Shown in pieces: positions 11,378 to 50,476 of a stretch of 64,000 bases of DNA (positions within the stretch are counted from its first letter, which is position 1; every line of letters starts with the position of its first letter). The notes beneath the pieces are model-generated. The model saw nothing but the letters and a program-made list of their open reading frames with translations. It was not told the DNA's origin and ran no database searches. The translations under genes and the position numbers were made by a program. Location: assembly GCA_003290165.1 (NCBI GenBank), contig QNQO01002079.1, positions 96,001 through 160,000 of the forward strand. The letters run 5' to 3'. Source of the DNA: Berberis thunbergii (taxonomy: Eukaryota; Streptophyta; Magnoliopsida; Ranunculales; Berberidaceae).

Positions 11378-12428
11378 ACACCACCGTCTTAAGAGCTTCG
11401 ACCCATAAGGAATTAAGTAGCTTAGAGCTACTAATCATACTACGCACCATGTCCATCAAGGTTCAGTTTCTTATTTTCGCTACACCATTTTGGTCTGGAG
11501 AACCTGGCATAGTGTATTGGGCAACTATCCCATTTTCTTGAAGAAACTCCGCAAATAAGCCAAGTGCTTGTCCATATTCAGTATATCTGTCATAATACTC
11601 TCCACTTCTATCAGTCCACACGATCTTGATTTGTTTTTCACATTGTTTCTCTACTTCAGTCTTGAAGACTTTAAAAGCATCTAAGGCTTCGTCTTTATTA
11701 TGAAGCATGTAGAGATACATATATAGTGAGTAGTCATCTATAAAGGTGATGAAGTATTTCTGACCATATGCGTCCATGTCTGGACAACATATATCTGAAT
11801 GTATGATTTCTAATATGTTTGTGCTCCTCTTGGCACCTTTCTTTGACTTGTGGGTCTTCTTTCCCTTAATGCAGTCCATGCAAGTACAAAAATTAGTAAA
11901 ATCAAAAGTCCCAAGTCCTTCGTCTTTTACTAATTTCTTGATTCTTTCAATGGAGATATGTCCTAATCTCCGGTGCCACAAAATAGAGGAATCTTCATTC
12001 ATAACACACCGCTTAGTCCCAGCTTGAACATGCATAACATCATGAGTGATTTCATTTTTTAAATTAAGAGAAAAATGACCATCAGACAATGTATTGTTCC
12101 CAACAAGTTTAGATTTATGAAATAAATCAAAATGAGTGTCTGAAAGTTAAAGGAATATCCAAAAGGTACAAGTCTTGAGACTGAAATCAAATTTCTAGAG
12201 ATATTTGGAATATAAAAATACCTTTTCAAATTTCAAAACAAAACCACTACTTAAAACTAAATTGCATGTCCCTATGGCCTCCACATGCGAACGCATCTTG
12301 TTGCCTGAATAGATGCATTGTTCACTTCCCACTGGTTTCCTTAGGTTTTGTAAGCCCTGTGAGGAATTCGAAATATGGATTGTAGAACCAGCATCAATCC
12401 ATCGTGTGTGATAACCAGCATCAACCAT
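11378..12428 (-). pseudogene. Copia protease and integrase N-terminal/core part
   Basis: Residues read from 12428 (WIDAGSTIHI) are the retroviral-type aspartic protease: the catalytic aspartate is kept, but the usual Asp-Ser/Thr-Gly triplet reads Asp-Ala-Gly. From 12089 comes the gag-pre-integrase zinc site with intact His-His-Cys-Cys spacing (HRRLGHISIERI, then CMDCIKGKK). The integrase core follows: IHSDICCPD (first Asp), VWTDRSGEY (second Asp), then PDQNGVAKIRN, where the family has a catalytic Glu; here it is Lys. A stop at about 11463 follows. The frame continues to the insertion point and resumes at 2595. Two inactivating catalytic changes suggest long decay. Confidence 0.85.
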
Positions 12429-12482
12429 ATTAGATTCAAAACAGACAAATGAGATTGGATTAACTTTCTTCTCAAGCCATTT

Positions 12483-13280
12483 TTAAAATTTAGTACAATC
12501 CTTCCTCATGTGCCCCTTCTTTTCACAGAAGAAACACTTGGATTCTTTCTTAATGTCAGCTTTGGGAGGAATTTTGTCTTTGTCCCTTTTATTGGCTTGA
12601 TTTTTCTTCTTTCCTTGTGTCGCCATGAAAACACTTTCTCCCTGTTCCATTATCAGCCTCCCTTCCTCTTGAACACACATGGTCAAAACTTCATTAATTG
12701 ACCACTTATCCTTATGCGTGTTGTAAGAGATTTTGAAGGGTCCATACTGCTGCGGAAGAGTGTTCAAAATGTAGTGCACAAGGAAAGTCTCAGACATCTC
12801 AACCTCAAGTTTTTTTAGCTGAGCAGCAATGTCTCTCATTTGCATGATGTGCTCTCGCACACCTTTCACACTTGTGAACCTTAAGGATGAAAACTTCATA
12901 ATTAGGGTGCTAGCAAGTGCCTTATCTTAAGTCTCAAGTTGTTCATCAATAGCCTTCAGTAATGCCTTGACATTGGTATACAGTTTGACAGCACCACGAA
13001 TGTCAGCAGAAATTTTGGTCTTAATGAGCATCACACTGAGGCGGTTAGACCGCTCTCATTGCTCATGAAGAGTAATTTCAGCTTGAGTGTTGGTTCCAGA
13101 AATTGGTGGTTCTTCTTTCCTGATAGCATAGTCAATGTCCATGCACCCTAAGTGAAGGAGAATTCTTTCCTTCCAAACTCTATAGTTTTCACCATTTAAT
13201 TCGGGAATATCAATTTTAATATCAGAGAAATTCGCAAGTTGCACAATTGCAAACATAAATAAATACATGTTTAACAACAA
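12483..13280 (-). pseudogene. Copia gag (nucleocapsid) with stop codons
   Basis: Two open pieces in the minus direction make up a copia Gag. 13056-13280 holds the start of the capsid region (LNGENYRVWKERILLHLG). 12483-12899 holds the rest (MQMRDIAAQLKKLEVEM, VHYILNTLPQQYGPFK) and a CCHC zinc knuckle, CFFCEKKGHMRKDC. Between them the reading is broken by a TGA at about 13055 (tryptophan in relatives) and a TAA at about 12930. A further stop after the knuckle at 12483 breaks the join to protease. Gag would form the particle that packages element RNA. Neighbours and order agree with copia. Confidence 0.85.
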
Positions 13281-32800: not shown

Positions 32801-33299
32801 ATTAACAAGTTAATGGCCACGCAAGCAAGCCCACTAACTAAAGAGTAGCTGATGATACATAAAATCGTCACCCGATCATGGCCATACACGTGGCTCAAAT
32901 CATCATAAATATTGGAGGGTCGTTACGAAGGCTCAAGTCATCATAAATATTGATGGGCCATTATGAAGGAGATAGAGGGAATCACTTCATCTCAATGAAA
33001 GAGGAGACCACTTTAATAAACATCCCCCTTCGTTGCGCCAACTGAGCTTAAGTCACGCACACGATTGAATGCAGTCATCAAGTCATTCATTATATAAGGT
33101 AAAGGAAAAGGTATAAGAGGGGGAGGTCGATTCTACTATCCTATCTACACTATACAACTTTAACTGAGTTTTGTCCAAATTTATTTCCTTCTTCAAACAG
33201 AGTCGCTAACTTAAGCATCAGAGTGCATTCGGCCACCAAAAAGGTGGTATTTGGCAGTCTAACAACTGTTTTGCGGGTCAAACTCACTACACCAAAAGG

Positions 33300-33655
33300 C
33301 CGGTTTAGCTACGCCGAGCTGGCCACGGTTCTAAACCGTTGGTTTATTTGCCACGGCAAAAAACCGTAGCTATAAGTACCAACGGCTTAAAACCGTGGGT
33401 AAAAAAACCTGGCCACGGCTTAAAACCGTTGGTATATTTGGCACGGCTAAAAACCGTGGCTATTAGTAGCAACGGCTCCAAACCGTGGGTATTATTCGCA
33501 ACGGCTCAACACCGTTGCAAAAAACAATTTAGCAACGGTTCTAAACCATGGCTAGGTCTAGCAACGGCTCAAAACCGTTGCAAAAAAAAATTTAGCAACG
33601 GTTCTAAACCGTGGCTGTCTTTAGCAACGGTTCAAAACCGTGGCTACATGAAAAG
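33300..33655. repeat. Left subterminal repeats of the CACTA element
   Basis: About eleven copies of a 10-16-bp motif of the form GGCT(T/A)AAAACCGTGGC occur in both orientations. Such subterminal motifs are binding sites for the small DNA-binding protein of CACTA systems. The matching array is at 49870-50430. Confidence 0.85.
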
Positions 33656-33659
33656 CTGA

Positions 33660-33960
33660 AAAAAAAATTGGGCGGGCTATTTTGGCGCTCGACCTTCCCT
33701 CCACTTGACTTCCATCAACAAAAACCTTCCCTCCCCTCCACAAACCTGCTCCCTCCACTCGACATCGACATCGTCTCTTTCCCTGCTCCCTCTCTTGACT
33801 CGACTTCCCTGTTCCTTCTCCTTCCCTGCTCCCTCCCTCGACTTCCCTGCTCCCCTCCTTCCCTGGTCTTCCCTGCTTAGTACTCGGTGTCTTCAAAATT
33901 GATTAGCCACTGCAACCGAACAGGTACTCTCTCTCTCTCTCTCTCTCTTTTATTTTTGAT
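33660..33960 (+). other. Pyrimidine-rich leader and (CT)n of the CACTA element
   Basis: A block of TTCCCTGCTCCCTC-like repeats is followed by GAACAG/GTACTCTCTC at 33918-33932, which looks like a 5'-untranslated exon with a splice donor next to a (CT)n run. It may be the leader exon of the transposase transcript; this is inferred from position and composition. Confidence 0.35.
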
Positions 33961-35280
33961 GAAATTAGGGTTCGATGATTTTTTTTTATTTATGTCTGGA
34001 AGTAATAATAATAATGTCCTTGGAAGTAAAAGATCAACAATGAGGGAAGATTCAAAATGTGAAATTAGATTTATAAAGTCTATAAGAGAAAACACTTTAG
34101 TGTATGGTTAATTTAGGAACATGATTGTCCGGCTTTCTAGTTCGATTTTCTTCCCATTCTGAATTTTGATATAGCTAGCATCTTTGGCTTTTAAATTTGT
34201 TTTGTACAACATATGATAACCCTTCCTTACATCAAACTAACTACTATAGAGTATGGTGTCACAATAATCTGCATTTATTTATGTTGTTCGCAACAAGCAT
34301 CTAATTAGTATGAGCTTCATCTTGTTCCCAGTTTGAGTTTCAATCTCTTTTGTTATCCTTTACAGTGAATATGAAGTTAGCACAAAGGTTTGTCTGATTG
34401 AACTTATATTTTGAGGTTTTTCTTTAGTGTAATTAATTTTACAACTATTAATAGCGCGTGGTGCCATTTGGCCTAACAACCATAATTAAATTTAATGAGA
34501 TCCTTTGTCAAGTTATGGTCCAAATAAACCTTAATCAAATCAAATCTTTGCTTCCTTTTCAAGAACAAAATATACATAAATAAGAGATGTTGAGAAATAA
34601 AAAGGAGAGATTTGTACATTACATTATTCAACTCATTTTGATCTAAAAAGAGTAAATTAACTATTTTTGCCTAATTTTCAATTTCATATCAATTCAAGAA
34701 ATTACTTCAAAATTAATAAATGCTTCTTCTGTTTTTATGGTTTCAATAGTCTCTACATGATATGTTCTAGGGCCGTTTCAAAACACTCAATTTTAATCAC
34801 CTTTGAAAGCAAAACTTAACTTACCATCTTTGAATACAATAAAAGCAGACCAAATATGTTGTAAAAGCTAAATAATAAATAAATAACTTTCCATTAAATT
34901 AAATAAGATTCCGAGTAGGTAAAGCACAAAATCTCCATGGCGTGTGAAATGATTTCTTGAAAATAAATGGGCAATCTCATAATTTCTACGACAAAACTAT
35001 TATTCTTTCTTTAAAATCATAAAGAAAATAAATACAGATGAATTTGGTTGTTTTAGAGTATATGATTTTTTATGCTGGACACTTTAATATGCAAAAGAAG
35101 TGAGGACTTTTTTGTTATATTTACTATGTTAGTTTGACAAATATCAAATCTGCTCGGAAGAGTTAACTGTGCATTCAAGTTGGTGCTAGACTAGTGATTC
35201 TTCTTTTTGGAAGAACATCGTGGTTTCTTGAATATCTCATTATCTTGACATGGGATTCCCAATGATAATGTTGCTTTATT
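33961..35280. other. Unassigned CACTA interior
   Basis: AT-rich, no recognised gene. It could be the first intron of the transposase transcript. Confidence 0.35.
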
Positions 35281-35293
35281 GTCTATCTTCCAG

Positions 35294-35382
35294 CTACAGC
35301 AGGAACAAACAAGGCTGCCTCCAGTGGCACTACTTTGAACACAAGGAAGCTTGATAAAGAAACATAAGTTCTTGCTCGTGAG
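35294..35382 (+). pseudogene. Captured exon fragment of an MBF1-like coactivator
   Basis: After an acceptor-like ATCTTCCAG the frame reads TAGTNKAASSGTTLNTRKLD, then KET, a stop, and VLARE. Multiprotein-bridging factor 1 proteins (small nuclear coactivators) have the near-identical segment before their helix-turn-helix domain; in them the stop position is Glu, so a GAA to TAA change fits. Only about 29 residues are present and the DNA-binding part is missing. No donor site is obvious; CTCGTG/AGTACT is weak. It lies 1.7 kb upstream of the transposase start, in the same sense. Identity rests on one short segment. Confidence 0.6.
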
Positions 35383-37070
35383 TACTCAACTCTTTGGATT
35401 TTGTGGTTTCTTACAGTTTAATTGTATCATCATTAGATTGCCTCTAGCTTCGACCAAGCTATAAGGAAATGCAAGATGCCATTAAAGAGGGATACGCATT
35501 AAAATGGGCTGGTTTTATCAAAATGTAAAGAAACCAGTAAAGAAACCTAAACATAAAACCAAATATGCGAAATTAGTAAATCCAACTTCGTTTTGGTTCG
35601 GGGATCCTAAATAACCCCTACTCAATTTAAAAAAAAAAAAAAAACATTTGCTTTGGTTGCTTGGTTCTTGCATGAATCTAAGTTAGGCGAATACAAGAAA
35701 ACTCACTCCTTTATCATCAGAAGGACTGAGTTTTCCTTAAATTAGTGAATCCCGCGATTTCACTTTTTACCCAAAAAAAATGTAATTTGATGCCTTTCTT
35801 TCTTCACTTTGGGTCTCAAGGTGTTCATGGCCTTACTGCGGTTTGAAATAGAGAAGTGCTTGATAAATGTAGCTTCCACCCTCTCAATGAGTCTGGTAAT
35901 CTTTGGAGTTTACAAGCAAAACTAGAACAGTTACATTAATGAAGACAACTATACTTGTAAAACTAGTACAAATCAGATTATGATACCCTGATGAATTCCA
36001 GTCACATCATTTTATCTTTTGTTGGTTCATTATGTGTTCAATTATTTCAGCCATATCTCCAAGATCCATGAAATAAAAATCCTAGGAGAATAGGTAAAGG
36101 AGCTCCCCTTGCATGCACAACATAAATAACAATTCACTCGTCATGAATAACAATTTTTTGTTTTCTTTTCGATTCGGTCCCTTCAAAGTTTTGAAGGAGC
36201 TTGTAGACTTGCTAAAATTAAAAAAACAAATGATTTTAACTTGTACACTTGCATCTTTTGCCAACAAAAACAGGTTATAAATTTGATTTGTCAAATTTTA
36301 ATTCATCCAAAAAGATGATTTCTTATATTCCTTGGATTTAAATGGAGTGGTACCTATATGATTTATCCTATACATCTATCAACTTTTAGGTTGAGTAGTG
36401 GTTCATGGATCATTTTCATCACAAGTCCATTTCTTCGGATTTCCAAAGTGATGATTGGGAATTATGCAATCATATATTGGAGGGTTTATGGTAGAAAACC
36501 CAGCCAGTGTGCTTCATGACCAGTCTACAACAAAATTAGCTATACTCACACCATATTTGTTTGGCCTTGAAAAAAAAAAACAGGAAAAAGAAACTCCATA
36601 TTTGTGCACAAAAACTATTGGGTTAACTGCCATTTCTTATTTCTTATTTGTGTCCCTGCCATTTCAAGCATCCTATAATTGATGTTAAACTGCCTTTCTT
36701 TCTTGGTTTTTGATATCTAGTTCTTTGTTTTATATGCTAAAATCCTCTAACGATCTTCCTTTTATTTGCACTCTTATGGGTTGTTGATGAATTCTTATTT
36801 TAATGTCTATATATTTTTATTTTGTTTTTTCTAAGATCAGCAATAAGCATGATTGTGGTATTTTAGAAACAATAGATCCAATGTAACTCAAGTAATTGAG
36901 TTGGAATGGGAATGTAGAAAGAAGGTCAATGAAACATTGTATAGGGTACCATAACAAATACAACAGCACAACTGGATGAATTGAAGTACATTAGATTGGT
37001 CAATGATTTTCAAGCAATTTAGATTCCTTTGGTCAATGACTAAAGTTAATCTTTTAATTTTTTTTTTTTG
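35383..37070. other. Unassigned CACTA interior upstream of the transposase
   Basis: AT-rich sequence with several homopolymers; no convincing exon. It ends in a long T-run and acceptor (TTTTTTGTGTAG, 37063-37075) just before the transposase start codon. Confidence 0.35.
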
Positions 37071-37077
37071 TGTAGAA

Positions 37078-40000
37078 ATGTCAACAATTCCTTTAGATAA
37101 GTCATGGATGAACAAACGGGGAAGTGCAATGTATATAAACGACGTTAGACAATTCCAACAGTTTGTTGAGGATAATGCAAATGGAGAGAGTCTTTTTCAT
37201 TGCCCATGTGTTCGATGTAGGAACTCGAGGGGAAACTTTAGTGTTGACGACATAGGTGTTCATTTGTTAAGCCATGGCATTGATACCAATTATGTCACGT
37301 GGATACATCATGGAGAGAATATAAACAAGCATGTGATTGATGTACCTATGACAGAAGTGGTTGAACCTGATGATGCCTGTGAATATCCTAGGATGAGCGA
37401 GCTAGTTGATGATGTATTCCTCAACATGCAAACTGTGGAGGCTGATGATGGGATAAATGACTTGAATTACACCGTCGAAGAATGTTTTGGCGGTAATCCA
37501 GAGGTGGTCCAGAACTTTCTCGTGAACCTGAGACAGTTATGAACAAGAAGTATCAAAAGTATAAGGAAAAAGCGACTGTGCCTTTGTACAATGGGTGTCC
37601 TAAGGATAAGACCATGTTGTCCACCATTATTGAATTGCAGAATTTCAAGACTCGTTTTAGTTGGAGTGGTAATAATGTGACGATGTTGTTAAAATGGCTA
37701 AAAACCTTATTACCGGATGATTGTAATTTGCCAGATAACTACCCAAACATGAAAAACACAATTAAAGATATGGGGATGGAATGTAAGACAATACATGCAT
37801 GTGCCAATGGATGCATACTCTATTGGAAAGAATATGAAGGTCTGGTTGCTTGTCCAAAATATAGTTCTGGTAGGTATAAGGTTTATGTGGATGTCGGTGA
37901 CAATGACTCCGGCAAGGTATACAGGAATAAAAAGGTTGTAAAGTATTTTCCATTAATTCCAAGGTTGAAAAGATTTTTTAGCATACCGTGGATTGGTGAA
38001 GCAATGACTTGGCACAAGGATGCTTGTTCAGATGGGAATTTGATGAGACATCCATGTGATTCAACACAAGGATGCTTGTTCAGATGGAATTTGATGAGAC
38101 ATCCATGTGAGATGGCCAAAGTTTGCCTCTGATAGTAGGAATTTGAGACTTGCAATATCGACTGATGGTTTTAACCCACGTGGAAATCTAAGTAATGCTT
38201 ATAGTTGTTGGCCATTAATAATAGCACCTTTGAATCTTCCACCTTCTTTATGCATGAAAAAGGAATTTTGTTTGTTAACCTTGTTAATATTAGGGCCAAA
38301 AGCACCCGGAAAGAATATTGATGTTTACCTGGAGCCATTAGTAGAAGAGTTGAAGGAATTGTGGGCAAATGGTGTTTCAACTTGGGATGTGTGTACTAAA
38401 AGCAATTTTTGGTTGAAAGCAATGTTGTTTTGGGGTATCCATGACTTTCCTGCTTATGGGACTGTAGCTGGTTGTAATGTTCATGGTTATAATGCAGGCC
38501 CTATTTGTGTTGATGATGTAGAATCTGAACGTCTTTCAAATAGTCGGAAGATATGCTAAAGAAGCCATCGACATTTTTTACCTACAAAACACAAGTTTAG
38601 AGATGACAAGGGATTCAACAAAGATGTTGAACATCGTCGTGCTCCACGACGGTTATCTGGCGAAGAAGTTGAACGAAGGATAGTGGAAATTTTGGAAGGT
38701 AGTTCTACACAATGTAGGGTTAGTGGGCAAAAAAGAATATGGTTGATAATGATACCGTCAATGATGAACCAGCCAATAACATTGCGCCACCGAGGTCTAG
38801 AAGGTCCATTTTATTTGATTTGTCGTACTGGAAGTTTGTTGAGCTACGACATAATATTGATGTGATGCATACTGAAAAGAATGTCATTGAACACTTATTG
38901 AACATATTGTTGAATGTCTCTAAGAAACCAAAGGATGGTGAGAATGCTCGAAAAGATATGGAAGACATGGGAACTCATAAGAGATATTGATTGAGCCATG
39001 ACAATGAAACGGGAAAAACTTCAATGCCAAAAGCATCATTTACCTTGACCAAGAAAGAAAAAAAAAGTATTTATGAATACACTAAAAGAGTTGAAATTGC
39101 CGAGTGGATTTTCATCCAAGTTGAGTAATTGCGTTCTTGGCAATCCCCTGGAGCTAAGAGGATTGAAGTCACATGATTACCATGTCATTATGCAACATTT
39201 ACTTACAGTTTTGCTTAGACATGTTTTTCGTGACAAGAAGGATAAAGATTTAAGAATTGCTATTCAAAGAATTAGCTTATTCTTTAATATCTTATGTGCT
39301 AAAGTGATCAACAAAACAGATCTTTAGTTGGCACACAAAGGTGTGATTGAGGCAATGTGTGTCCTTGAAAAGGAGTTTCCGCCTTCATTCTTTGTTATAA
39401 GTGTGCATTGCATGGCTCATCTAACCGAGGAAGCGATGTTTGGTGGTCAAGTTCGATACCGATGGATCTATCCCTTTGAGCGGTAAATAATTTTTCTAAT
39501 TTTAGTGCATGTCATCACGTTATCTTTTTATATTATATACTAATTTATCATTTTATTTATGATTGATAGGTTAATGAAACGATACAAAGACTATGCTAAA
39601 CATTTCAGATACATAGAAGGATCAATAGCAGAATCATACCTTGTAGATGAATCTGTTACATACTGCATGGAGTATATGCCAAAGCCACGGTTCGGAACTC
39701 ACAAACACAGTCAAGAGGTGTGGCTTGATGTAGATGATGAGTATGCCGATGAAAAGCCATTGGATAAAGGAAAAAACTATATGCTAAATAATGTACAATT
39801 TAAACAAGCTCGAAGATGGGTTTTCAATGCACTTGCTGATTCAAGTGATTGGGAAGAGTAAGATATATAATATTTTAGTCTTTTTTTATAACTAGAAATA
39901 TAGAATTATGATAATATGGTAACTTGTGCAGAAAATACAATGAATATTGCATGGAGTTGGCTACACAAAGTAAAAAAAAATGGTCAAAGAAAAATGTTGA

Positions 40001-40720
40001 GAAAGCTACAGATTTTATTCCTTGGTTATGTAATGAGGTATTTTATAATGTGTATTTATTCATATATATATATACATATATAATTTTTTATTTTCAGATT
40101 TCAATTCTAAGATGATTTGTTTTACAATGTAGTTGGAGAAGGCTGGGGAAACAAATACCACACTTCGGAGGTTAGCCAATGGTCCACAATTTTTGGCAAC
40201 CCGATATCCAAAATATTGTGTAAATGGTTTCATATTTGCGACAAATTCTTTGGATGAATGTTTGGTGACACAAGATAGTGGTGTCTCCATGGATGCCATT
40301 GCTCATTTTGTTGCTTGTAAGAATGATAAGAGGCCAAAGGACCAACTAGTCAAATGGTATGGAGTTGTTAGAGACATACTGGTTCTAGACTACATATATT
40401 TCAAAGAAACAGTTTTCTATTGTGATTGGGTCAAAGTGGAAGATAAGAAAAATGCATATAAGGTGGACCCAATTTGGAACCATGAGATGGTAAACTTGTC
40501 GAAGCTAAAAGACAAAAGAAAGGTGGAAGAGAATCCATTCATTTTAGCTCAAGAAGCAAGTGGGGTATTTTATTCGAAAGATCGATCAAATGACGGGTGG
40601 CATGTAGTTCTACATACTCAAAGAGGCTTGAACACTAATGTCGATATAAAGGAAATTCCCACTGTGTATCAAAGCATCTTGAAAGACAACCCCAACCTGA
40701 AGAGCTTACTGGAATTTTAA
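37078..40720 (+). pseudogene. TNP2-type CACTA transposase, frameshifted
   Basis: The start codon at 37078 follows a splice acceptor. Domains in order: a Transpos_assoc-type N-terminus (DKSWMNKRGSAMYINDVRQF, then FHCPCVRCRN) at 37090-37330; a Transposase_21-type core at 37560-38560 (NPRGNLSNAYSCWPLI, GKNIDVYLEPLVEELKELW, AMLFWGIHDFPAYG); then HNIDVMHTEKNVIEHLL; a DUF4218-type part (KLPSGFSSKLSN to WIYPFER, 39073-39483); and a DUF4216-type part (LVKWYGVVRDILVLDYIYFKETVFYCDW) ending in a stop at 40720. Introns are likely at 39484-39566, 39861-39930 and 40036-40132. It is broken by a frame change near 37540, a 52-bp tandem duplication (38013-38110), stops after 38132 and 38559, and a frame change near 38740. 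It would cut and paste the element. Confidence 0.85.
38013..38110. repeat. 52-bp tandem duplication in the transposase core
   Basis: CACAAGGATGCTTGTTCAGA...CATCCATGTGA occurs at 38013 and again at 38065. The copies differ by one G in a short G-run. It duplicates the HKDACSDGNLMRHPC segment and shifts the frame downstream. Confidence 0.85.
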
Positions 40721-40994
40721 TTGACTATGCTACAATATTTTTTGATGCATTTCTAATGCTATTTTAGTCATCCTCTTTGGTTGAGACCAAATATTTTGTC
40801 TTTGTTTCTTATTTTGACTTTTGAGTTGGGAAAGGGAAGCTTTGTAGCTATGTATTGGCTTTTCCAATGCTTTACAAAAATCTATTTGTGGTGATATGTT
40901 GTGGAAGGAAATTATCTATAAATGTGGTGTATATAGTTGATTCTTATTTATTTTTGTTTGACAATGGTTAATATCTCTAATGTCATTGATAGAA

Positions 40995-42708
40995 ATGGAT
41001 AGTACTCGCGACAATCTCTCCACCATTGATGTTACTAGATCTACAAATGATGACAGTGAAGTTAAACAGACCATACAGTTCAACCTCCACGGTTTAGCAG
41101 TTGGACCTGGTGCTAGAAATTTCAATAAAAACATTGGAAAGCTTGTTGAAACCCTTGTGCCCATCAAATTCAAGGGTTTGCACCATATTACTAACAACTA
41201 CAAAGAGGATGTGTGGAATGGCCTCAAGGTGAGATTTTACATCATTGATTTTCATAATGTCTTATTTTATTTTCAACTTATATCTCAATGGCTTATTTGC
41301 AGCGTGAATACGAGATCCCAAATTATGTGAAAAAGAGTGTGCATTTGAAAATGCTTGAATATTATAGAAGGTTCAAGGCAGATCTTAGGAAGAATTATTT
41401 AGATAAGTATCCTACCATTGAGGAACAAGAGAAGGATGTTCCAAATGGTGTAAGAGAGGAGGATTGGAAGGAGTTTGTTCGCTATGAGAGCACCCCTGAA
41501 GCGAAGGCAAGAGCCCAAAATGCAAAAAACAAAAAGGCTTCAAAGTATGTATGGGGGGGGGGTGACCAAAAGAGTGCTGCAGTCTGCAGAAGTAGAGTAT
41601 GAAATGGTAATTGAGTTTCTAGCCACTAGTACAATATTATATACCATTTAACTATATAGGCTGAGACTAATCTTTCAAGTATATAGGTTGAGAAGAACCC
41701 TGATAGGGAACCAGTCACACGCACTGCCATATGGATTGCTTGTCACACGGGAAAGGATGGAAAACCTATGCATGGTTCTGAACAATATATGGTATGTGCC
41801 CAATGATGTATTTTATACCCAATTCTTAATTTACTTTGTAGTTGTTTGAATATTATTTGTGTCCTGATTTATTTTATTTTTTTATTCTTTTGAAGGAACA
41901 AGTTAAAGCAAAAAAAGCTGCCTTGCAAGAATCTTCAACCCAGGGTACCACTGACCTCACTATTGATGATGATCCTCTAAGCCAAGTGTTTGGCCAAGAA
42001 GCGAGGGGACGTACTCGTTGTGTTGGAACCACCGTCTCTAAAAGGAAGTATGATGCTACACTTCTCGCTCATTCATTGCTTTTGGAAAAAACATTGGAAG
42101 TAAAAAAATGTAGCGAAAAATATGATAGATTGGAAGAAAATGTTAGATGGATACGAGAGAGACTTGAAAGTGGAACTTATGTGAGACCATCAACAAGTGA
42201 GGGAATACAAGGAGGGACACAAAGAACTGAAGATACACCGTCATCCTGTACACAATCGACAAGGCAACCAGAAAATCCATTACCTCCATCTCCATTACCA
42301 CCATCTCCATTACCTCCATCTCCATTACCACCATCTCCATTACCTCCATCTCCATTACCACCATCTCCATTACCATCATCTTCTCAAGGTGTTGCGAGGT
42401 TTCCTTCTCCAAGCAATCCTGTTCCTTCAGTGTCAAGGACTTACAAAGTTTGTGATTGGGAAAGGAATGTCATTGCGATAGCAATAGAGGTTGTAGATCC
42501 TATCCATCAATTCTCTTGCGCTTGTCATGGATCATTGAACCCTGCAACGGAGATCAGACTTTCCTTATGCTTCAAATTCAAGACTGGGGTGAAACTTTAC
42601 AAAAGTGATCCAAAAGGAGACATGATGGGGGATTTGGACGTTGGTGATTTCTTCGTATGGTGTAAAAATCGTGTGGAACTTGATGATTTGGACGTTGGTG
42701 ATTCCTAA
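40995..42708 (+). pseudogene. Transposase_24-type (TNP1/TNPA-like) second CACTA gene
   Basis: Four exons with GT-AG borders: 40995-41228, 41303-41616, 41687-41790 and 41896-42708. Exon 2 holds a Ptta/En/Spm-type segment (LRKNYLDKYPTIEEQ, PNGVREEDWKEFV, TPEAKARAQNAKNKK). Exons 2-4 continue with VTKRVLQSAEVEYEM, VEKNPDREPV and DGKPMHGSEQYM, as in that family. Exon 4 has a coiled-coil-like stretch (LLLEKTLEVKKCSEKYDRLEENV) and a proline repeat. A run of ten G at about 41553-41562 puts the 3' part of exon 2 out of frame, so the copy is probably inactive unless slippage restores it. In CACTA systems such a protein binds the subterminal repeats. Confidence 0.8.
42284..42380 (+). repeat. Proline-repeat minisatellite in the CACTA second gene
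   Basis: The 15-bp unit CCATTACCTCCATCT (with CCACCATCT variants, giving a 30-bp alternation) repeats about six times and encodes a PLPPS repeat. It is a low-complexity linker of variable copy number, likely tolerant to length change. Confidence 0.9.
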
Positions 42709-42911
42709 CCCCCTTGCAAGTGATCTTAGTTTCTCCAGGTATAGTGTTATGTGTCAATATGTAGTGTTGTATGTCAGCCTTCCTTGGAGCACAATTACCA
42801 TCCATTTATTTTCATGTCCTTAACTACTTTTTCATTTGTTCTTTGTAGATATTGGAATTACTTGAGGAAGCAAACATTTGTTCTACAAACAATATGTAGT
42901 GTTGACTTCGA

Positions 42912-43412
42912 AGTTGTTAAATTCAGGTCTGTTTATGGCTTTGCAACCAAAGATCATTGCATGTGGAAACACTTTAGCAGCATATGGGATGTTTATGAGG
43001 TTTGTAGCTGGGCCTGCTGTAATGGCAGCTGCTTCTGTTGGAGTTGGACTTAGAAGCCAAATACTAAAAGTCTCCATTGTTCAAGTGAGTCTTTACTTTG
43101 ACAAACATCAACTCCATTTGATGTTAAGCTTGTTTCTTGTATTGAATTCTAAACTTGTTTCTGATTATTCAGGCTGCTCTACCACAAGGAATAGTTCCTT
43201 TTGTATTTGCAAGGGAGTATAACCTACACCCAGACGTATTAAGCACCACGTAAGTTTCATATATTCATGTTTATTTTGTTTATCAGCATCCGTTTATATT
43301 GTGAATTCTTTATGTATCTATATTGACTTGCAGAGTGATATTTGGAATGATTGTGTCACTGCCCATCACCATGCTATATTATGCTTTCGTGGGTTTCCTA
43401 TACAATCCGTAA
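42912..43412 (+). pseudogene. Captured 3' end of a PIN auxin-efflux carrier gene
   Basis: Three exons encode the C-terminal membrane segments of a PIN-type carrier, which exports auxin across the plasma or ER membrane. 42912-43084 reads [14 protein letters not shown] and [13 protein letters not shown]; 43173-43249 reads [17 protein letters not shown]; 43334-43412 reads VIFGMIVSLPIT and ends in a stop. Both introns keep GT and AG borders and reading phase. Transmembrane helices 8-10 of the usual ten are represented; everything before is missing, so no transport function is expected. The last three exons of the gene, complete to the stop codon, appear to have been taken. It lies 200 bp downstream of the second transposase gene in the same sense, so run-through transcripts could include it. 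Confidence 0.82.
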
Positions 43413-44276
43413 GAAGATGAAAAGGCACAACTACTGCAATTTCAATGCCATTGAAGAACAATACCAGATCCACTGAATAAGCAGAACATTTGAAGAGAAA
43501 AATTACATTTGTTGAAGTATGGCAAAGGACAATGGCAGCTGAAATGGCATCAGCGCAAGTGGTTCGATGATTTGGCCAGTGGGTACTCTGCAGTGAAACA
43601 GAGCGCACTCTAGTTTGCAACCAGCAGCAAGCTCGCATCAGTGCGTCCCTCGCAGAGCAGCAGTTCATCCCTCGCAGCAGCAGCAGCAGTGCGTACCTCG
43701 CATCATCAGCAGATCGTCCCTTGTAGTAAGTCCCAAAATCTGCTATTGTTTACTTTTTTTTTTGCAGTTATATTTAGTTTTTTCACTGTAATAAAGGTTT
43801 TTAAATTGTTTCTAATGTTTTGCAAAGATTTTCAGTAACTAAACGCCAAAGAAAGAGTGGTTTTCTGTCCTCGTACGCCCTTGGTCAGATCTTGCACACC
43901 CAATAGTGTTATTTTCATATATTATCTCGGCCTCTAGGATATTTCCTTTAGGAGATCTTGCAGTGCTACACTTAACATTATAGTGCACATGCGTTCATTC
44001 ATTCCTTATGAGGACTGTTTCTCTTGGGTTTGTCTCAAGTTCTTAATTATATTTCCAAACCCAAATTTACCAAGTACAAACAATTGAGTTGCATTTATGT
44101 TGAAATGCCTCTTCATAGAATGCATGTCACAATAAAACTCATCATTATAGACGGCCTGATGTTCGAATTCTTTTATGTTCTGTTCATTTTACTCCCTTTT
44201 GCAAATCATGAAACCATTCTAATGGCTTTATTTGTTTCCTATTTGCTTCTGAAATACTTTATTTCCTCATTTTTAG
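43413..44276. other. Unassigned CACTA interior between PIN and P-loop pieces
   Basis: Includes a CAGCAG-rich stretch at 43620-43720 (GCAGCAGCAGCAGTGCG) and otherwise AT-rich sequence; no exon recognised. The end (TTTTTAG at 44270-44276) is a good splice acceptor for the next exon. Confidence 0.35.
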
Positions 44277-44350
44277 AATCCGAGAAAAGAAGGAATCTGT
44301 GACATTGTTGTTGTGCGGTACAAGCGGGTGCGGCAAGTCTACATTGTCAG
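44277..44350 (+). pseudogene. Captured P-loop exon (2-phosphoglycerate-kinase/LPA1-like)
   Basis: After the acceptor TTTTTAG the exon reads [20 protein letters not shown] followed by STLS. It contains a perfect Walker A nucleotide-binding loop (GTSGCGKST). The flanking residues resemble the plant LPA1/2-phosphoglycerate-kinase-like family. At the TCAG of its last codons (44347-44350) the sequence turns into RDR6 without losing frame. Only 24 codons are present; the assignment rests on the P-loop and its neighbours. Confidence 0.45.
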
Positions 44351-45395
44351 ATGGTATTGGTATTATAACACCAGATCTTGCAGCAGCAGTAGCAAATAAG
44401 TTAGAATTGACTACACACCCACCTTGTGCCTATCAAATCAGATATGCTGGCTGTAAGGGAGTCATAGGTTTATTGGCTGAGAAAAGGTGATGATAGGTGC
44501 CGTCTCTACTTGAGACCAAGCATGAACAAATTTGAGTCTAATTACACTATCATTGAGGTCATCAGTTAGACTAAATACCAGCCTGGTTTCCTGAATAGAC
44601 ACATTGTAACACTGCTTTCATCCTTGGGTGTTCCATATGGAGTTTTTTCAGAAAAGCCAAATGCTCAGTTACAGTTCGAATGCTTCTGACATTCTTACTT
44701 TGTCGTGGGGAGCAAGGAAATATTGCTGCAGCAATACTGAATGCTAGTTTCAAGCCTCAGACTGAACCTCATCTAAAAGGAATATTATCTTGCATAAGAG
44801 CTACCCAGTTGGGGGACCTTCTTGAAAAGGCAAGGATCTTTGTGCCTTCAGCTTGTTGGTTGATGGGGTGTCTGTATGAATTAGGTGTGCTTGAACAAGG
44901 ATTGTTTCATCCAAGTTTTGACCACATCATTAGAAAATTACTTCATCAAGGATGGATCTAAATTACCAGAGGCACGTAGGAATGTAAAAATAATCACAGG
45001 AACTGTGGCAATAGCTAACAATCCATGTTTCCACCCCGGTGATATTCGCATTCTAGAACCTGTAGACGAGCCTCGCTTGCACCTTGTTGGTTGTTTGATT
45101 TTCCCTCAAAATGGAGATATAGACCACATGCAATGAGGCATCAGGAAGTGATCCTGATGGGGATCTTTGCTTTGTTACATGGGATCAAAATCTTATACCT
45201 CCTAGCAAGAGAAGTTGGCCACCCATGGATTCTTCTCCAGTAGAAGAGAAAAGGTTTCCTCGTAATGTTACTCATAAGGTACACTTCTAACCCAATTCGG
45301 TGCTTCCTGCTACTTTATGTTAATTTTTGTCTTTGGCAAAGGTTTGGATGAAAAGAGTGTATTTTACTCAAAAAAGAAAGGGGAATTCTAAATGT

Positions 45396-45528
45396 CGAGG
45401 AAACGGGCGAGGGAAGGGACGTGGCGGGGTGGGGACCGTCCACCTCGCTCGGGATGCATGCACCAGAAATGTCAGCACGCATCCCGAGCAGGGTGGACGG
45501 TCCCCACCCCGCCTCGCCCGTTTCCTCG
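45396..45528. repeat. GC-rich hairpin in the intron of the captured RDR6
   Basis: The outer arms CGAGGAAACGGGCGAG (45396-45411) and CTCGCCCGTTTCCTCG (45513-45528) are perfect complements. The inner 34-bp arms (45424-45457 and 45479-45512, GCGGGGTGGGGACCGTCCAC...) pair with two mismatches. A 12-nt bulge and a 21-nt loop complete it. It is far richer in G and C than its surroundings. It could be a small fold-back element or a strong small-RNA precursor. Confidence 0.85.
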
Positions 45529-46680
45529 CTGTGTAGAATCACTCAAAAAGAAAATATCCACATAAAAGAATGTAGGACATAGTCCAAAAGTCCTCATATA
45601 GTGTTGTTGGAAATTTAGACATCAACTGTAATTCCCTTGATGCAATTAGAGGTATCAGCTGGAATTGCTCAAAATATTGATTCTGGTCCATGGTATCAAT
45701 AGTTTATTTAAGATATTTATCCATGGTTTCTAAAGCACGGTGCTTTAGAATGCTTGATTTGGGAGCCTATTCAGTTTTTATTTCACATTCAGGATATAGG
45801 ATATTGGAAAAGACAGAAATGGCAATAGAAATCGTTTTAGCATTCACAAATAGGAAAATGTACTAAAGTGCTCTGCAGTAAAACAACTTGAAATTAAAGT
45901 TTTAGATCAATACATCCAAAACACTAAATTCCATCAATATTGTTAGACACTTGAATTGTTGATTTGCTATATATAATAGACTTTCTCCAGTGTTCATTGC
46001 TATGCTCGAGCAGTAGCTGCAATAGTATTGTCATTATCATCTGCTGGATTATTTTCCTTTTGATTCTACATTATGTTACATTCTGTGTTTGTATCCCTTA
46101 CCTTTGGTGTTGGAAAATAACCAATACTAGCTTAAGAATAAATTGAGTTTTAGGGAAGAATGAAATATTGGCTAGTTCTGATTATATCTGCAAACTCAAT
46201 AGAATAGTATAGTTAGTACTATATTTGCCAGATGCTCCTATCTTTCAAAACCGCCTGTTTTCAAGATAGCACAGATAAAAATGTCCATAATTTCTTCCTG
46301 GTCAGTCATGTTCTCTTTGAATGCCTGGAGGATTTAATACATTGCAAAAAAATGATTATCTGGTTAAGTATGATTTAGTTCTATGATGAAAAAACCTCCA
46401 GATTGAATTCACTTTATGTTTTACTGTTGTCTATTTGTGCCACTTATGGGAATGTAAGACTTGCCCTTGTGTTTTGAACCTTCCTATCTCCTGTGATTGC
46501 TCTTTCACTACCCTTTATAATTCCAAAGAGGGTCTAATTGATGTATATATGGAATTATATTCTGGTGTTCACTTTGAACTGTCATGTGTTCAGATATGTT
46601 ATGAATTTTAGTTTAAGGCTAGTTTCTTACATTAGGAGCACCTTATGTACAAGCATGAATAACTCTACTTCTTTGTTCAA
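45529..46680. other. Rest of the RDR6 intron
   Basis: AT-rich sequence up to the polypyrimidine tract and acceptor (TTCAACAG, 46676-46683). No coding signal. At 1.4 kb the intron is bounded by GT and AG. Confidence 0.4.
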
Positions 46681-46905
46681 CAGGATATTGTAGAATTTTA
46701 CACCAAGAATATGGTAAATGAAAACCTAGGATTTATCTGTAACACACATGTGGCTCATGCTGATCAATGCGAATATGGGGTCCTTGATGAGAAATGCATC
46801 AAACTTGCAGAGCTTGCAGCCACAGCTGTAGACTTCCCCAAGACAGGCAAGCTTGTGACTTTGCCCTACCCTCGTTAAAACCCAAAATATATCTAAATTA
46901 TTGTC

Positions 46906-47409
46906 TCTTATTTGAGAAATTGTTTTGGTTTGCATGTCACTTATTTCATCGAGTTCCCTCTTATCTCACTCTCATTCCACTTCACACAACAACAACTACT
47001 ACTACTACCCTTCCTCCCCTTTGATTTTGGTATGTATGTAAAAACCTTCTCATTATCAACTGGTTTCTGATTCTCTGCTTGATTTCTAACTCTCTCTTCT
47101 TTAACTTATCTCTGTAATCTGTAATCTATCATCTTTTTCCATCTTTAGTGGGTTTGTACACATTGACAACTCCAACATGTTCCCATATTGGTCATTCATA
47201 TTACTTCACTGAAATTTTACTGTTTTTTGCATCTTCAGCACCTTTTTTTTTTCCGTTGTTTGCGATTGTTCATCTACTTTAGCTTCAATGCGGTTTCGTT
47301 ATTCAGTTCATGTAGGTCTTTGAACTTGATAGAGTTGATATATTGAGATGGGTTTTGGTTTACCTTTTTATATTCTATTTTCATGATTTTTACACTCTGT
47401 GAGTGACAG
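46906..47409 (+). other. Region upstream of the lipase fragment, with repeat copy A
   Basis: Contains (ACT/ACA)n-like CAACAACAACTACTACTAC at 46987-47010 and the first copy (47185-47400) of a segment repeated at 48845-49058. It ends with GAGTGACAG, the acceptor before the first lipase exon. Possibly the intron or 5' region of the captured lipase gene. Confidence 0.45.
47185..47400. repeat. Direct repeat copy A inside CACTA
   Basis: Pairs with 48845-49058 at high identity (shared phrases: CATATTACTTCACTGAAATT, TTTTTTGCATCTTCAGCACC, GTTTGCGATTGTTCATCT, CATGTAGGTCTTTGAACTTG). Non-coding, intron- or leader-like. Each copy lies upstream of an exon. Confidence 0.85.
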
Positions 47410-48563
47410 TCAGCCTGATGTGTCCCAATTGGTCCCAGCTCAAGATGGTATATGCAAAGCGAGACTGGAGATATATGGATATGTATGCAAAGAGCATACG
47501 GTACTGTGCTCTAAATTTAATCTATTGTTCTGCACTGAAGTGTGCATATCTTAACTCTTGCTGTTTGATATTAGGTGACAACGCAAGATGGCTATATTCT
47601 GAGTATGCAGCGAATTCCAGTTGGTAGATCCGGAGGCACAGCAAGACAGAGAACACCTGTTCTTCTTCAGCATGGTCTCCTGATGGTAAGTACTAACTTA
47701 CAATAAAACTAAATTAGCATATAGTTTGTCAATGTTTTCTTTCTTGGCTTATGGAGTTTGACAGCACTGAGACTGTCAGATTTTGGTACTTGAATCTGTA
47801 TATTACAGCATGATTGAGGATAGGTGTGATTTGATCATATATTCTTAATGCTTTGTCTGTTGGCAGGACGGTATAACTTGGCTGTTGAATTCTCTAGACC
47901 AATCATTGGCATACATCTTAGCCGATAGTGGTTTTGACGTGTGGATTGCAAATACTCGCGGAACTAAATACAGCCGTGGACACACTTCTCTTAGTGCGGA
48001 TGACCGGGTATTCTTCTATTAATTTCATGGATCCTTCACTGTGTGATTAGACTTATGGCAGATTGATTGATTCTTATTTTTGCAGACTTATTGGCAATGG
48101 TCATGGGATCAATTAGTGATGTTCGAGCTCCCAGCTCTTGTCCAGTATGTGAATGATCAAACTGGTCAGAAGCTTCACTATGTTGGGCATTCCCTGGTAA
48201 ATCTCCACATAGCCATATATGCTTTCTTTTGTTTTTGGATTTCTGTATTTTGAATATGCTCAGTTGGCTCACTGAGATTGGACCATGGTGTTCCTAGGGT
48301 ACATTGATTGCTTTGGCCTCATTCTCCCAAAACAAGCTCCTGGACATGTTAAGATCGGCTGCCTTACTGAGCCCAATTGCTCATCTTCGTCAAATTTCAT
48401 CTCCGATTGCACAAGCTGGATCTGAAGAATTTTTTGCTGAAGTAAGTTTTGCATTCGTTATGATCAAGTGTATTTTTTTCATAACTTAAAACTCATCAGC
48501 TGCCATTTGTTATCTGTAACAGAACCTTTACCAGTCAGGTACCTTTGAATTCAATCCAAAAGG
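47410..48563 (+). pseudogene. Captured acid/triacylglycerol lipase gene, 5' two thirds only
   Basis: Six exons with GT-AG borders (47410-47500, 47575-47685, 47867-48007, 48086-48196, 48298-48441, 48523-48563) encode the first half of a plant gastric-type lipase (alpha/beta-hydrolase, MPL1-like). Readable are DGICKARLEIYGYVCKEHTV, TTQDGYILSMQRIPVG, TPVLLQHGLLMDG (oxyanion region), LADSGFDVWIANTRGTKYSR, YWQWSWDQLVMFELPALV, the nucleophile elbow GHSLG split over exons 4 and 5, IALASFSQNKLLDMLRSAAL, and FEFNPKG. The exons join without stops to that point. The catalytic Asp and His, which lie further on in the family, are missing, so no lipase activity is expected. No signal peptide is included. 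It lies downstream of RDR6 in the same sense. Confidence 0.87.
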
Positions 48564-48844
48564 GTGAGGCATCATCTCTTCTACGTCCTTGCGATGACAG
48601 TGACGCAAATTCTAGTTTTTTAACCTTTTGTTTTGATCACTTGAGATCTTGCTATATACCAATTCAAGGGTTTCGATTTCAGTTTCAGTTTGAATTCTTT
48701 ATTTTCTTTTCCTCTGTTTGACTATCTTCAAGACATATTGCCTTTCAAAAAAATAATCTTGAAGACATATTGCCAAAAATCCTGATTAAATAATGATCAT
48801 AATATTATAATAACAATAACTGTGGAATAAATCATAATATTATA

Positions 48845-49058
48845 TTGGTCATACATATTACTTCACTGAAATTTTATTGTTTTTTGCATCTTCAGCACCT
48901 TTTTTTCCGTTGTTTGCGATTGTTCATCTGCTTTAGCTTCAATGCGGTTTCGTTGTTCAATTCATGTAGGTCTTTGAACTTGATAGAGTTGATATATTGA
49001 GATGGGTTTTTGGTTTATCTTTTTATATTCTATTTTCATGATTTTTACACTTTGTGGG
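48845..49058. repeat. Direct repeat copy B inside CACTA
   Basis: Second copy of 47185-47400, with a shorter T-run and a few substitutions. The region between 48564 and 48845 is AT-rich and unassigned. Confidence 0.85.
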
Positions 49059-49108
49059 ATTTGGCACTTATAATGAATTGAACAGGTGATCCTTGTTTCT
49101 TTTTCAGC

Positions 49109-49449
49109 TCAAGTGGTTGTTTCATACTGGGGAGATGGTGTTCTCATTGATTGGAAGCTGGGAAGGTTGTCTGATTACCAAGATTCAGAGAATGGTAAAT
49201 TTTCCAAAGAGCTGCCAGTGTTTTCATCATTTTCATCATCAGCTTTGGTTTATTAGCAATCTTTATAGGTCATGTTTGTCTATCATTGAGTACTGACTAA
49301 TTTTTATACTGTAGGGCTCTGAAGGTCTAAGCCAGTACGGGCAACAGTATGTTGGACAGGAGAATTCGCATACATTGCTTGTTTCTGGGGTGCAAAGTGT
49401 GTCGTTGTATCAACCATCACCGGTGCCATATACAAACAACTACCAGGTG
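49109..49449 (+). pseudogene. Two captured exons of an unidentified gene
   Basis: Exon 1 (49109-49195) after TTTTTCAG reads QVVVSYWGDGVLIDWKLGR and LSDYQDSEN and ends at a GTAAAT donor. Exon 2 (49315-49445) after ATACTGTAG reads GSEGLSQYGQQYVGQENSHT, then LLVSGVQSVSLYQPSP and PYTNNYQ, and ends CAG/GTGCTG. Both have clean splice borders and no internal stop, which argues for real captured exons, but I do not recognise the family. Exon 2 is rich in Gln, Ser and Tyr, as in nuclear regulatory proteins; that is only composition. Confidence 0.5.
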
Positions 49450-49860
49450 CTGCATTCTCATCATTTTCAGTATATTGAACAAGCAACTATCTAAAGAAAT
49501 GGGGCCTGTTCCTAAGGGCATCAATGTATTTTCTTACAATATTATAACTAGGTGGATTTGTATTGTTGGAAAAAACAAAGAAAAATTATTTTGTTTTAGA
49601 TGCGAGCGAAACATGATATAACAAAGTTCCATTTGTTCAGGTTAATCCTGTTATTGTACATTAGTGCTATTTGTTTACATGTTTTTGTTTGGCGTCAAAA
49701 CTTGACAAGTTCCTTTTTAAGGTTGATTTTGTATTTATCTAGCATATAGTTTGTGGAATCTTATTCGTGTCGGAGGCATGACACAAACCATAGTAAGGAC
49801 TGATTTTGCAGGTGCCACGGCTGTGATTTTGCTGCAGCAGCAAAAAAAATATATAAATTT
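49450..49860. other. Unassigned CACTA 3' interior
   Basis: AT-rich, no exon recognised; possibly transposon 3' untranslated sequence. Confidence 0.35.
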
Positions 49861-49869
49861 TTTTTTCGA

Positions 49870-50430
49870 TTATATTAATTTGCAACGGTTTGAAACTGTT
49901 GCAACAAAACAGATTTTTTTTTTTTGAATTTTGTTTTAACTGCCAACGGCTTACAACCGTGGTTGCATCTTGCCACGGCTAGAAACCGCGGGCTTTCTTC
50001 ATCAGTTGCCACGGCTTAAAACCGTGGCCATGAATTGACACGGCTAAAAACCGTTGCTATGACGTTTGCCACGGTTTATTTCTCACTGTTTAACCACGGC
50101 TTAAAATCATGGACAGGGTTAGCCACTGCTTAAAACCGTGGCTACCTTGTTAGCCATGGTTTAAAACCGTTGCTATTATCCATGCTTTATCACGGCTTAA
50201 ACCGTGGCTATTGTTGCCACGGTTAAAAACCATTGTTATTGTTCTTGCAACGGTTTAAAACTGTGGCTAAATGATGAAAATCACCACCCCTGCTCAAGCA
50301 TAAAACCATTGCTACAATGTTTAGCAACGGTTTATAGCCGTTACAAGGAATTTCGCGACGCCTCTGTAGCCCACGGCTCTTAGTCGTGACAATGGGTTAC
50401 GCCCACGGTTTAGAACCGTTGCTAATGGGG
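49870..50430. repeat. Right subterminal repeats of the CACTA element
   Basis: At least fifteen copies of the AAAACCGT(G/T)GC-type motif occur in both orientations over 560 bp, matching the left array. The terminal inverted repeat ends at 50445. Confidence 0.88.
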
Positions 50431-50476
50431 ATTTTTTGTGTAGTGACTCTCAGGAGGACGAGATTTGGACGCATCA

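Follow-up and report, generated by a model that had tools for sequence, protein, structure and literature searches.

How DNA transposons acquire host genes, and why gene-laden families still multiply under silencing, are open questions that meet in a 64,000-nucleotide stretch of Berberis thunbergii DNA (contig QNQO01002079.1, here C2079, bases 96001-160000; hereafter, the window). Within it lies a complete CACTA transposon of 17,161 bp (33285-50445) that combines remains of transposase genes with pieces of host genes. An earlier note, written from the sequence of this stretch, proposed selection for, or a mechanism favoring, co-transcription of these pieces with the transposase. We consider it likely that the element represents one member of a family of long, gene-collecting CACTA (En/Spm-type) transposons, with cargo captured from the host and drifting as a passenger. 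Gene-collecting CACTA elements are already known (Tgm-Express1, Tpn1, and Pack-CACTA); the new part is a many-gene cargo that lies only in sense across related elements. The assembly searched comprises 2.24 Gb in 11,732 contigs.

Structure and class of the element

The element starts with CACTACACCAAAA at 33285 and finishes with TTTTTTGTGTAGTG at 50445, and its terminal inverted repeats pair at 21 of the 28 outermost positions. A target-site duplication, ACT, flanks it at 33282-33284 and 50446-50448; the complete ends and the duplication described in the earlier note were verified, and their coordinates are exact. Terminal and subterminal repeats occupy 33285-33700 on the left (similar in the related elements S1, S3, and S4, introduced below) and 49851-50445 on the right. 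The motifs AACCGTGGC and AACCGTTG occur six times each in the window, confined to 33285-33700 and 49800-50445. The left-end signature of the clade is CACTACACCAAAA, six free bases, and then TTAGCTACGCCGAGC. CACTA...TAGTG inverted termini, as in En/Spm-type elements, were found in all six elements with both ends seen (the window element, its copies C732 and C746, and S1, S3, and S4), and the 3-bp target-site duplication is equal in four of them (ACT in the window element, TTG in C746, AGC in S1, and TAA in S4). The window element also has the subterminal repeats at both ends and the tnp2-type domain that characterize this class.

All features described here for the element lie on the + strand unless noted. 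The first part of the tnp2-type transposase gene (37080-39486) matches the Pfam models Transpos_assoc (PF13963, 2.1e-17) and tnp2 (PF02992, 3.2e-63), and the last part (39544-40717) matches DUF4218 (7.5e-7) and DUF4216 (4.4e-12). Open reading frame (ORF) analysis places interruptions of the tnp2 frame at several points, some of which may be sequencing errors of the assembly, as gaps unaccompanied by substitutions suggest. A second gene, delimited by its ORFs, occupies the TNPA position (40970-42708); it has no Pfam match, and it is related to S1 both at the nucleotide level (91.3% over 40830-42688) and by tblastn (1.9e-132). The two transposase genes claimed previously are thus present as gene remains, and the element lacks the intact transposase frame of an autonomous element. 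It has two properties of a gene-fragment-carrying (transduplicating) CACTA: part of its cargo (RDR6) has a host-gene homolog at another place in the genome, and the cargo has been mobilized with the element.

Host gene pieces carried by the element

From left to right, the left end is followed by 3 kb of sequence that includes the weak MBF1 exon, the tnp2 gene, the second gene, a PIN piece, and a spacer, and then by joined P-loop and RDR6 pieces, a 217-bp repeat, a five-exon lipase piece, a second copy of the repeat, two match-less exons, and the right end. Exon limits were set from homology and splice sites rather than from complementary DNA. All identified cargo lies in the transposase sense with its introns kept, and most is downstream of the transposase genes; Pfam and PDB matches and the exon reading bear out the earlier description in this respect.

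Three host genes are identified by strong matches. The PIN auxin carrier piece (Pfam, 1.6e-24; PIN3 in the PDB, 4.3e-38) consists of the third exon from the end (42937-43085), the second from the end (43173-43250), and the last exon up to an in-frame stop (43334-43412). For RDR6, five pieces match the RNA-dependent RNA polymerase (RdRP) model with E values from 6.2e-10 to 4.8e-18; the exon 1 piece (44343-45279), whose frame is broken according to ORF analysis, is followed by an intron (45280-46683) and an exon 2 piece (46684-46878) that matches RDR2 in the PDB (2.1e-8). The acid (triacylglycerol) lipase piece (47402-48441) keeps five exons with introns and matches Pfam at 2.3e-20 and lysosomal acid lipase in the PDB at 8.4e-41. 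Its best protein relative is 69% identical, in a search whose length limits were exceeded by full-length lipases. The left copy of the 217-bp direct repeat (47185-47401) abuts the lipase piece, and the right copy lies at 48842-49056.

The remaining pieces are weaker. A P-loop exon piece (44279-44342), joined in an open frame to RDR6 at a boundary (44343) set by the RDR6 donor, matches several P-loop models, all under cut-off (e.g., AAA_29, 7.3e-4); its translation reads as LPA1/2PGK-like, a label that was not counted. The probable MBF1 exon (35294-35366) reaches 0.01 in Pfam, below cut-off, with nothing in the PDB at E up to 1. Two exons (49108-49195 and 49316-49446) have no match, the second falling in a 3' part common to S1 and S4, and ten further sense ORFs of the window have no Pfam match. 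The claim of at least four host genes therefore stands if the P-loop piece is counted, but strong evidence covers only three (PIN, RDR6, and lipase).

Copies and mobility

A genome search with the RDR6 exon gave 40 scored matches, all at 96-100% identity (40 of 120 candidates were scored, with the window included and alleles not collapsed). Around 10 of these, 20 kb, or as much as the contig held, was fetched. The PIN exons, the P-loop/RDR6 pieces, and the first two lipase exons are present in 10/10 fetched copies, the later lipase exons and the two match-less exons in 7/10, and the MBF1 exon in 4/10, the other six ending short of it. Grouped by common flanks or long collinearity, the fetched copies and the window amount to seven loci. 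For example, C2346, C974, and C9515 are one locus (C2346 is 96.8% identical to C974 over 20.1 kb and 98.2% to C9515 over 14.8 kb).

Other family copies with the same cargo, for which the earlier note had suggested looking, thus exist. C746 matches the window element end to end (95.6 and 95.3% in two blocks, split at a foldback insert) and has its own TTG/TTG duplication, C732 matches end to end at 96.2%, and C8887 matches from 33640 to the right end; cargo order is identical in all three. When every one of the seven loci is represented by a single copy, the range 42709-47924 differs by 1.6-3.3% between pairs, in an almost star-like pattern, from which we infer a recent radiation of the copies, with about 1.3% change per branch.

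The window, C732, and C8887 were rejected as separate insertions because the right flank is common to all three. C732 is 97.3% identical to the window from 33285 to at least 62189, and its left flank differs (TAA versus ACT). Within 45280-50445, eight of the 10 regions compared between C732 and the window have 0.000 substitutions, the others being the spacer (1.0%) and the left repeat (1.5%); most regions to the left of 45280 differ by 1-4%.

Cargo orientation across related elements

S1 and S3 were encountered as neighbors of window-type copies, and S4 was found through the RdRP model. Their left ends are similar to that of the window element (S4, 88% over 374 bp; S1, 78% over 802 bp; S3, 72% over 247 bp). 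S1 (C109, reverse, 12,815 bp, AGC/AGC), which lies beside a window-type copy, also matches 49245-50445 of the window at 92% and then 83%; between this segment and the one that matches the second gene lie a piece of an AAA ATPase (2.4e-17) and exons of ribosomal protein L7 (1.1e-13). A search with the L7 piece gave 110 candidates, of which 40 were scored: 38 are 96-100% identical (35 of them near full length and 3 partial, S1 included), and two places at 86-87% represent a candidate donor gene. S4 (C138, 10,558 bp, TAA/TAA) has 49216-50445 in common with the window at 89.6% and carries a GBBH-like piece and an RdRP piece of a type other than RDR6. This second RdRP-type fragment (profile positions 381/382-450, in an open frame with no stop) occurs at 19 listed places, and the one that was read is in S4 (L038, 3903-4124). 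S3 (C2346, 12,728 bp, unequal flanks) carries RabGAP, Ras-family, alliinase-type, and Myb pieces.

The placement of the RabGAP, Ras, Myb, and alliinase pieces in S3, and of the GBBH-like piece in S4, rests on reading translations. From these we take the Myb and alliinase pieces to be HHO-type and TAA/TAR-type; neither piece was found in the 10 of 50 second-batch ORFs tested. Further pieces whose translations read as kinesin-5 and SR45-like (S3), MetE and OEP37-like (S4), and F-box/LRR (S1) were not counted. When five pieces of the window transposase genes were used in tblastn, S1 was matched in the second gene only (no tnp2) and nothing was matched in S3 or S4, while the control, C746, was matched by all five.

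For the interiors of S1, S3, and S4, stop-to-stop ORFs of at least 42 codons (150 sense and 133 antisense, terminal repeats and the S1 second gene excluded) were scanned against Pfam at E up to 0.001, together with 48 antisense ORFs from the non-transposase interior of the window element; of the sense ORFs of the window, a chosen subset was scanned. These batch scans show no cut-offs, and the weakest matches counted were Myb (2.9e-4) and the GBBH-like piece (7.2e-5). In sense, the relatives contain pieces of eight host genes (RabGAP-TBC, ribosomal L7, RdRP, AAA, Ras, GBBH-like, alliinase C, and Myb). None of the 181 antisense ORFs of S1, S3, S4, and the window matched a host family at this threshold; two weak antisense Pfam matches (0.006 and 0.009) are below cut-off and were not counted. 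Together with PIN, RDR6, and lipase from the window, the tally is 11 host genes in sense and 0 in antisense (two-sided sign test, p 0.001), excluding the P-loop and MBF1 pieces, which are weak and also in sense.

Two further observations concern these elements. CACTA sequences are clustered on C109, where S1 and a truncated window-type copy face each other head to head and another right end follows about 2.4 kb past S1. With the RdRP model, 75 candidates were scored (1733 at first look) and yielded 111 matches, among them several gene-like loci that have a long first exon; the RdRP family looks expanded, with alleles, subgenomes, and transposon cargo inflating the count.

Origin, age, and selection of the cargo

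The RdRP model retrieves an RDR6-like donor gene on C499, with a near copy on C8134. Collinearity between cargo positions 44343-46899 and the C499 gene extends across exon, intron, and exon; four of the matching blocks are 85-88% identical and a fifth, of 102 bp, is 79% identical. By comparison, four other RdRP loci are just 69-70% alike over the main block. The exon 1 side (44343-45379) is 87.7% identical to the donor, the intron matches it at 45545-45634 (79%), 45631-45733 (85%), and 46092-46549 (85%), and homology past exon 2 extends to 46899.

Between donor and cargo, RDR6 exon 1 differs by 6.8, 6.8, and 14.2% at the three codon positions (19, 19, and 40 of 281 each; chi-square p 0.0035), and exon 2 by 5, 5, and 5 of 67. 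Over 788 aligned bases, mostly intron (donor positions 3000-4300), the difference is 12.4%. These values fit one constrained branch (the donor) and one unconstrained branch (the cargo, with about 6-7% change of its own), and the RDR6 capture would therefore be old, its age several times that of the spread of the copies. The two copies of the 217-bp repeat are nearly alike, the majority base differing at one column only (10/11 left copies versus 8/8 right copies). The repeat was thus probably duplicated, and the bracketed lipase piece inserted, not long before the copies spread, unless the two repeats were homogenized by gene conversion.

Coding constraint was also sought by comparing exons with introns across copies, as mean substitution against the window (n = 10 for PIN and RDR6, n = 7 for lipase and the match-less exons, related copies not down-weighted). 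The means were 1.8% for exons and 2.7% for introns in PIN; 2.0% for P-loop/RDR6 exon 1, 2.2% for RDR6 exon 2, and 1.5% for the RDR6 intron; 2.7% for exons and 1.7% for introns in lipase; and 2.6% for the two match-less exons and 1.9% for their intron. Consistent exon conservation was not found in this comparison, with only PIN pointing in that direction. Given this lack of a consistent difference between exons and introns, and the broken RDR6 frame, the cargo is unlikely to be under selection for its peptides; neither these rates nor the donor comparison showed coding selection.

Comparison with known gene-carrying transposons

Helitrons differ from CACTA elements in that they are rolling-circle transposons without inverted repeats or target duplication. 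Maize Helitrons resemble the window element in having gathered several gene fragments stepwise (PMC3288121). Among CACTA elements, soybean Tgm-Express1 has the same type of ends and holds five fragments of unrelated host genes in which both exons and introns are retained, but it is 5.7 kb long and described as composed of gene fragments (PMC1947982), whereas the window element measures 17 kb and has transposase remains, many matches, and sister elements with other cargo. The Tpn1 family of Ipomoea nil likewise conserves its termini while captured host sequence replaces the interiors, although its captured-gene members are described as nonautonomous (PMC5105172). Pack-CACTA elements of Arabidopsis, rice, and maize also hold captured coding DNA within CACTA ends but are defined as lacking transposase (PMC8903248). 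By this definition, the window element is excluded by its tnp2 remains, and S3 and S4 would belong. Gene-carrying CACTA elements of Chenopodium and grapevine are long and combine transposase domains with captured host pieces, but are described with one host gene per element (Neprosin or AP2 in the former, PPR in the latter) (PMC8978399, PMC2528002). The captured gene lies upstream of the coding region in Chenopodium (PMC8978399); in grapevine, some families also carry ULP domains and the PPR piece is antisense (PMC2528002). A clade-wide sense bias in CACTA cargo was not found in the literature that the search could reach, which excluded most subscription papers.

Explanations for the assembly and orientation of the cargo

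The pieces were probably added one by one, copied from other sites when breaks or gaps within the element were repaired, with the cargo drifting afterwards as a passenger. This is suggested because the lipase piece sits between two 217-bp copies, as repair insertions can leave, and because a coding frame runs through the joint between the P-loop and RDR6 pieces. That same in-frame joint, and the origin of the cargo from several unrelated genes, argue against fusion of neighboring insertions, as in the tandem-insertion model for Pack-CACTA (PMC8903248). Elements of the clade do cluster, as at C109, but internal terminal repeats have left little trace: within 33700-49800, none of four end motifs of 8-9 bases is present, and four motifs of 6 bases occur 1-2 times, as rarely as outside; we regard such fusion as rather unlikely. 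The probability of an ordinary local gene cluster, or of ends from two different elements, either of which would have overturned the earlier note, is negligible. The same package lies elsewhere, on C746, with its full cargo and its own TTG duplication, so that both ends belong together and a local cluster is refuted; the many matches and the RDR6 donor at another locus agree, and no evidence in favor of either reading was found.

With regard to orientation, the proposed selection for co-transcription or fusion with the transposase gene or its messenger RNA (mRNA) draws on the sense direction of all identified cargo, its position mostly downstream of the transposase genes, and its retained exon-intron structure; splicing of captured CACTA exons into transcripts is documented for soybean (PMC1947982). 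The same bias is found, however, in S3 and S4, which have no transposase match, and in S1, which has no tnp2, and therefore help to a transposase gene does not explain it. As the exons are also not consistently conserved and the RDR6 frame is broken, the proposal is not supported and appears quite improbable. A counter-silencing role, in which RNA from the RDR6 and second RdRP pieces would interfere with plant RNA-dependent RNA polymerases, has a precedent in miR820, which comes from rice CACTA elements and acts on OsDRM2 (PMC3459959). In its favor, different RdRP genes have contributed pieces to each of two CACTA subfamilies whose ends are similar, and both pieces have many matches. S4 was found via the RdRP model, however, and RdRP enrichment was rejected as proof on grounds of this ascertainment. 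The RDR6 cargo also looks unconstrained, a donor-cargo difference of about 12-15% weakens pairing, and most other cargo is unrelated to silencing, all of which makes this role highly unlikely.

Most likely, the sense-only pattern reflects either the loss of lineages with antisense cargo or capture that follows the direction of transcription. Under the former, read-through antisense RNA would pair with host mRNA, trigger small interfering RNAs (siRNAs), and silence the element, such that only lineages with sense "camouflage" would amplify; we hold this purge tentatively, at less than even odds, with capture coupled to transcription direction as the alternative. According to a review, captured sequences can serve as siRNA reservoirs or camouflage (PMC13317346).

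Several points weigh against the overall reading of a gene-collecting family with sense-only cargo. The sign test rests on four elements, and pieces within one element may not be independent captures. The antisense PPR piece in grapevine means that sense-only cargo is no general CACTA rule (PMC2528002). Target-site duplications are unequal in C732 (TAA/ACT) and S3 (TTT/AAA), and C732 is a recombinant between copies or a misassembly, because its right part is nearly identical to the window while its left part and left flank differ. Gene conversion between the two 217-bp repeats could also keep them alike. Finally, the search for parent genes that the earlier note had proposed yielded a donor for RDR6 only; donors for PIN, lipase, P-loop, and MBF1 were not located.

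If the purge of antisense cargo were true, cargo orientation would preserve, in the genome, a trace of the pressure that RNA silencing exerts on transposons. The related elements, with differing cargo, many matches, a surviving donor, and one-sided orientation, make both the acquisition of host genes and the persistence of gene-laden families testable in one genome: junctions show how capture proceeds, and a comparison of orientation with copy number tests for a silencing filter on cargo. They also add a clear case of silencing-gene pieces, of two RdRP types, being spread by transposons.

Other features of the window

The RDR6 intron contains a foldback insert resembling a miniature inverted-repeat transposable element (45407-45529, no strand assigned), detected by inverted-repeat search, with 55-nt arms at 87%. 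Similar sequence occurs elsewhere on C2346, C974, and C9515. Outside the element, two long minus-strand ORFs (1536-2526 and 11463-12899) read in translation like pieces of a Ty1-copia polyprotein.

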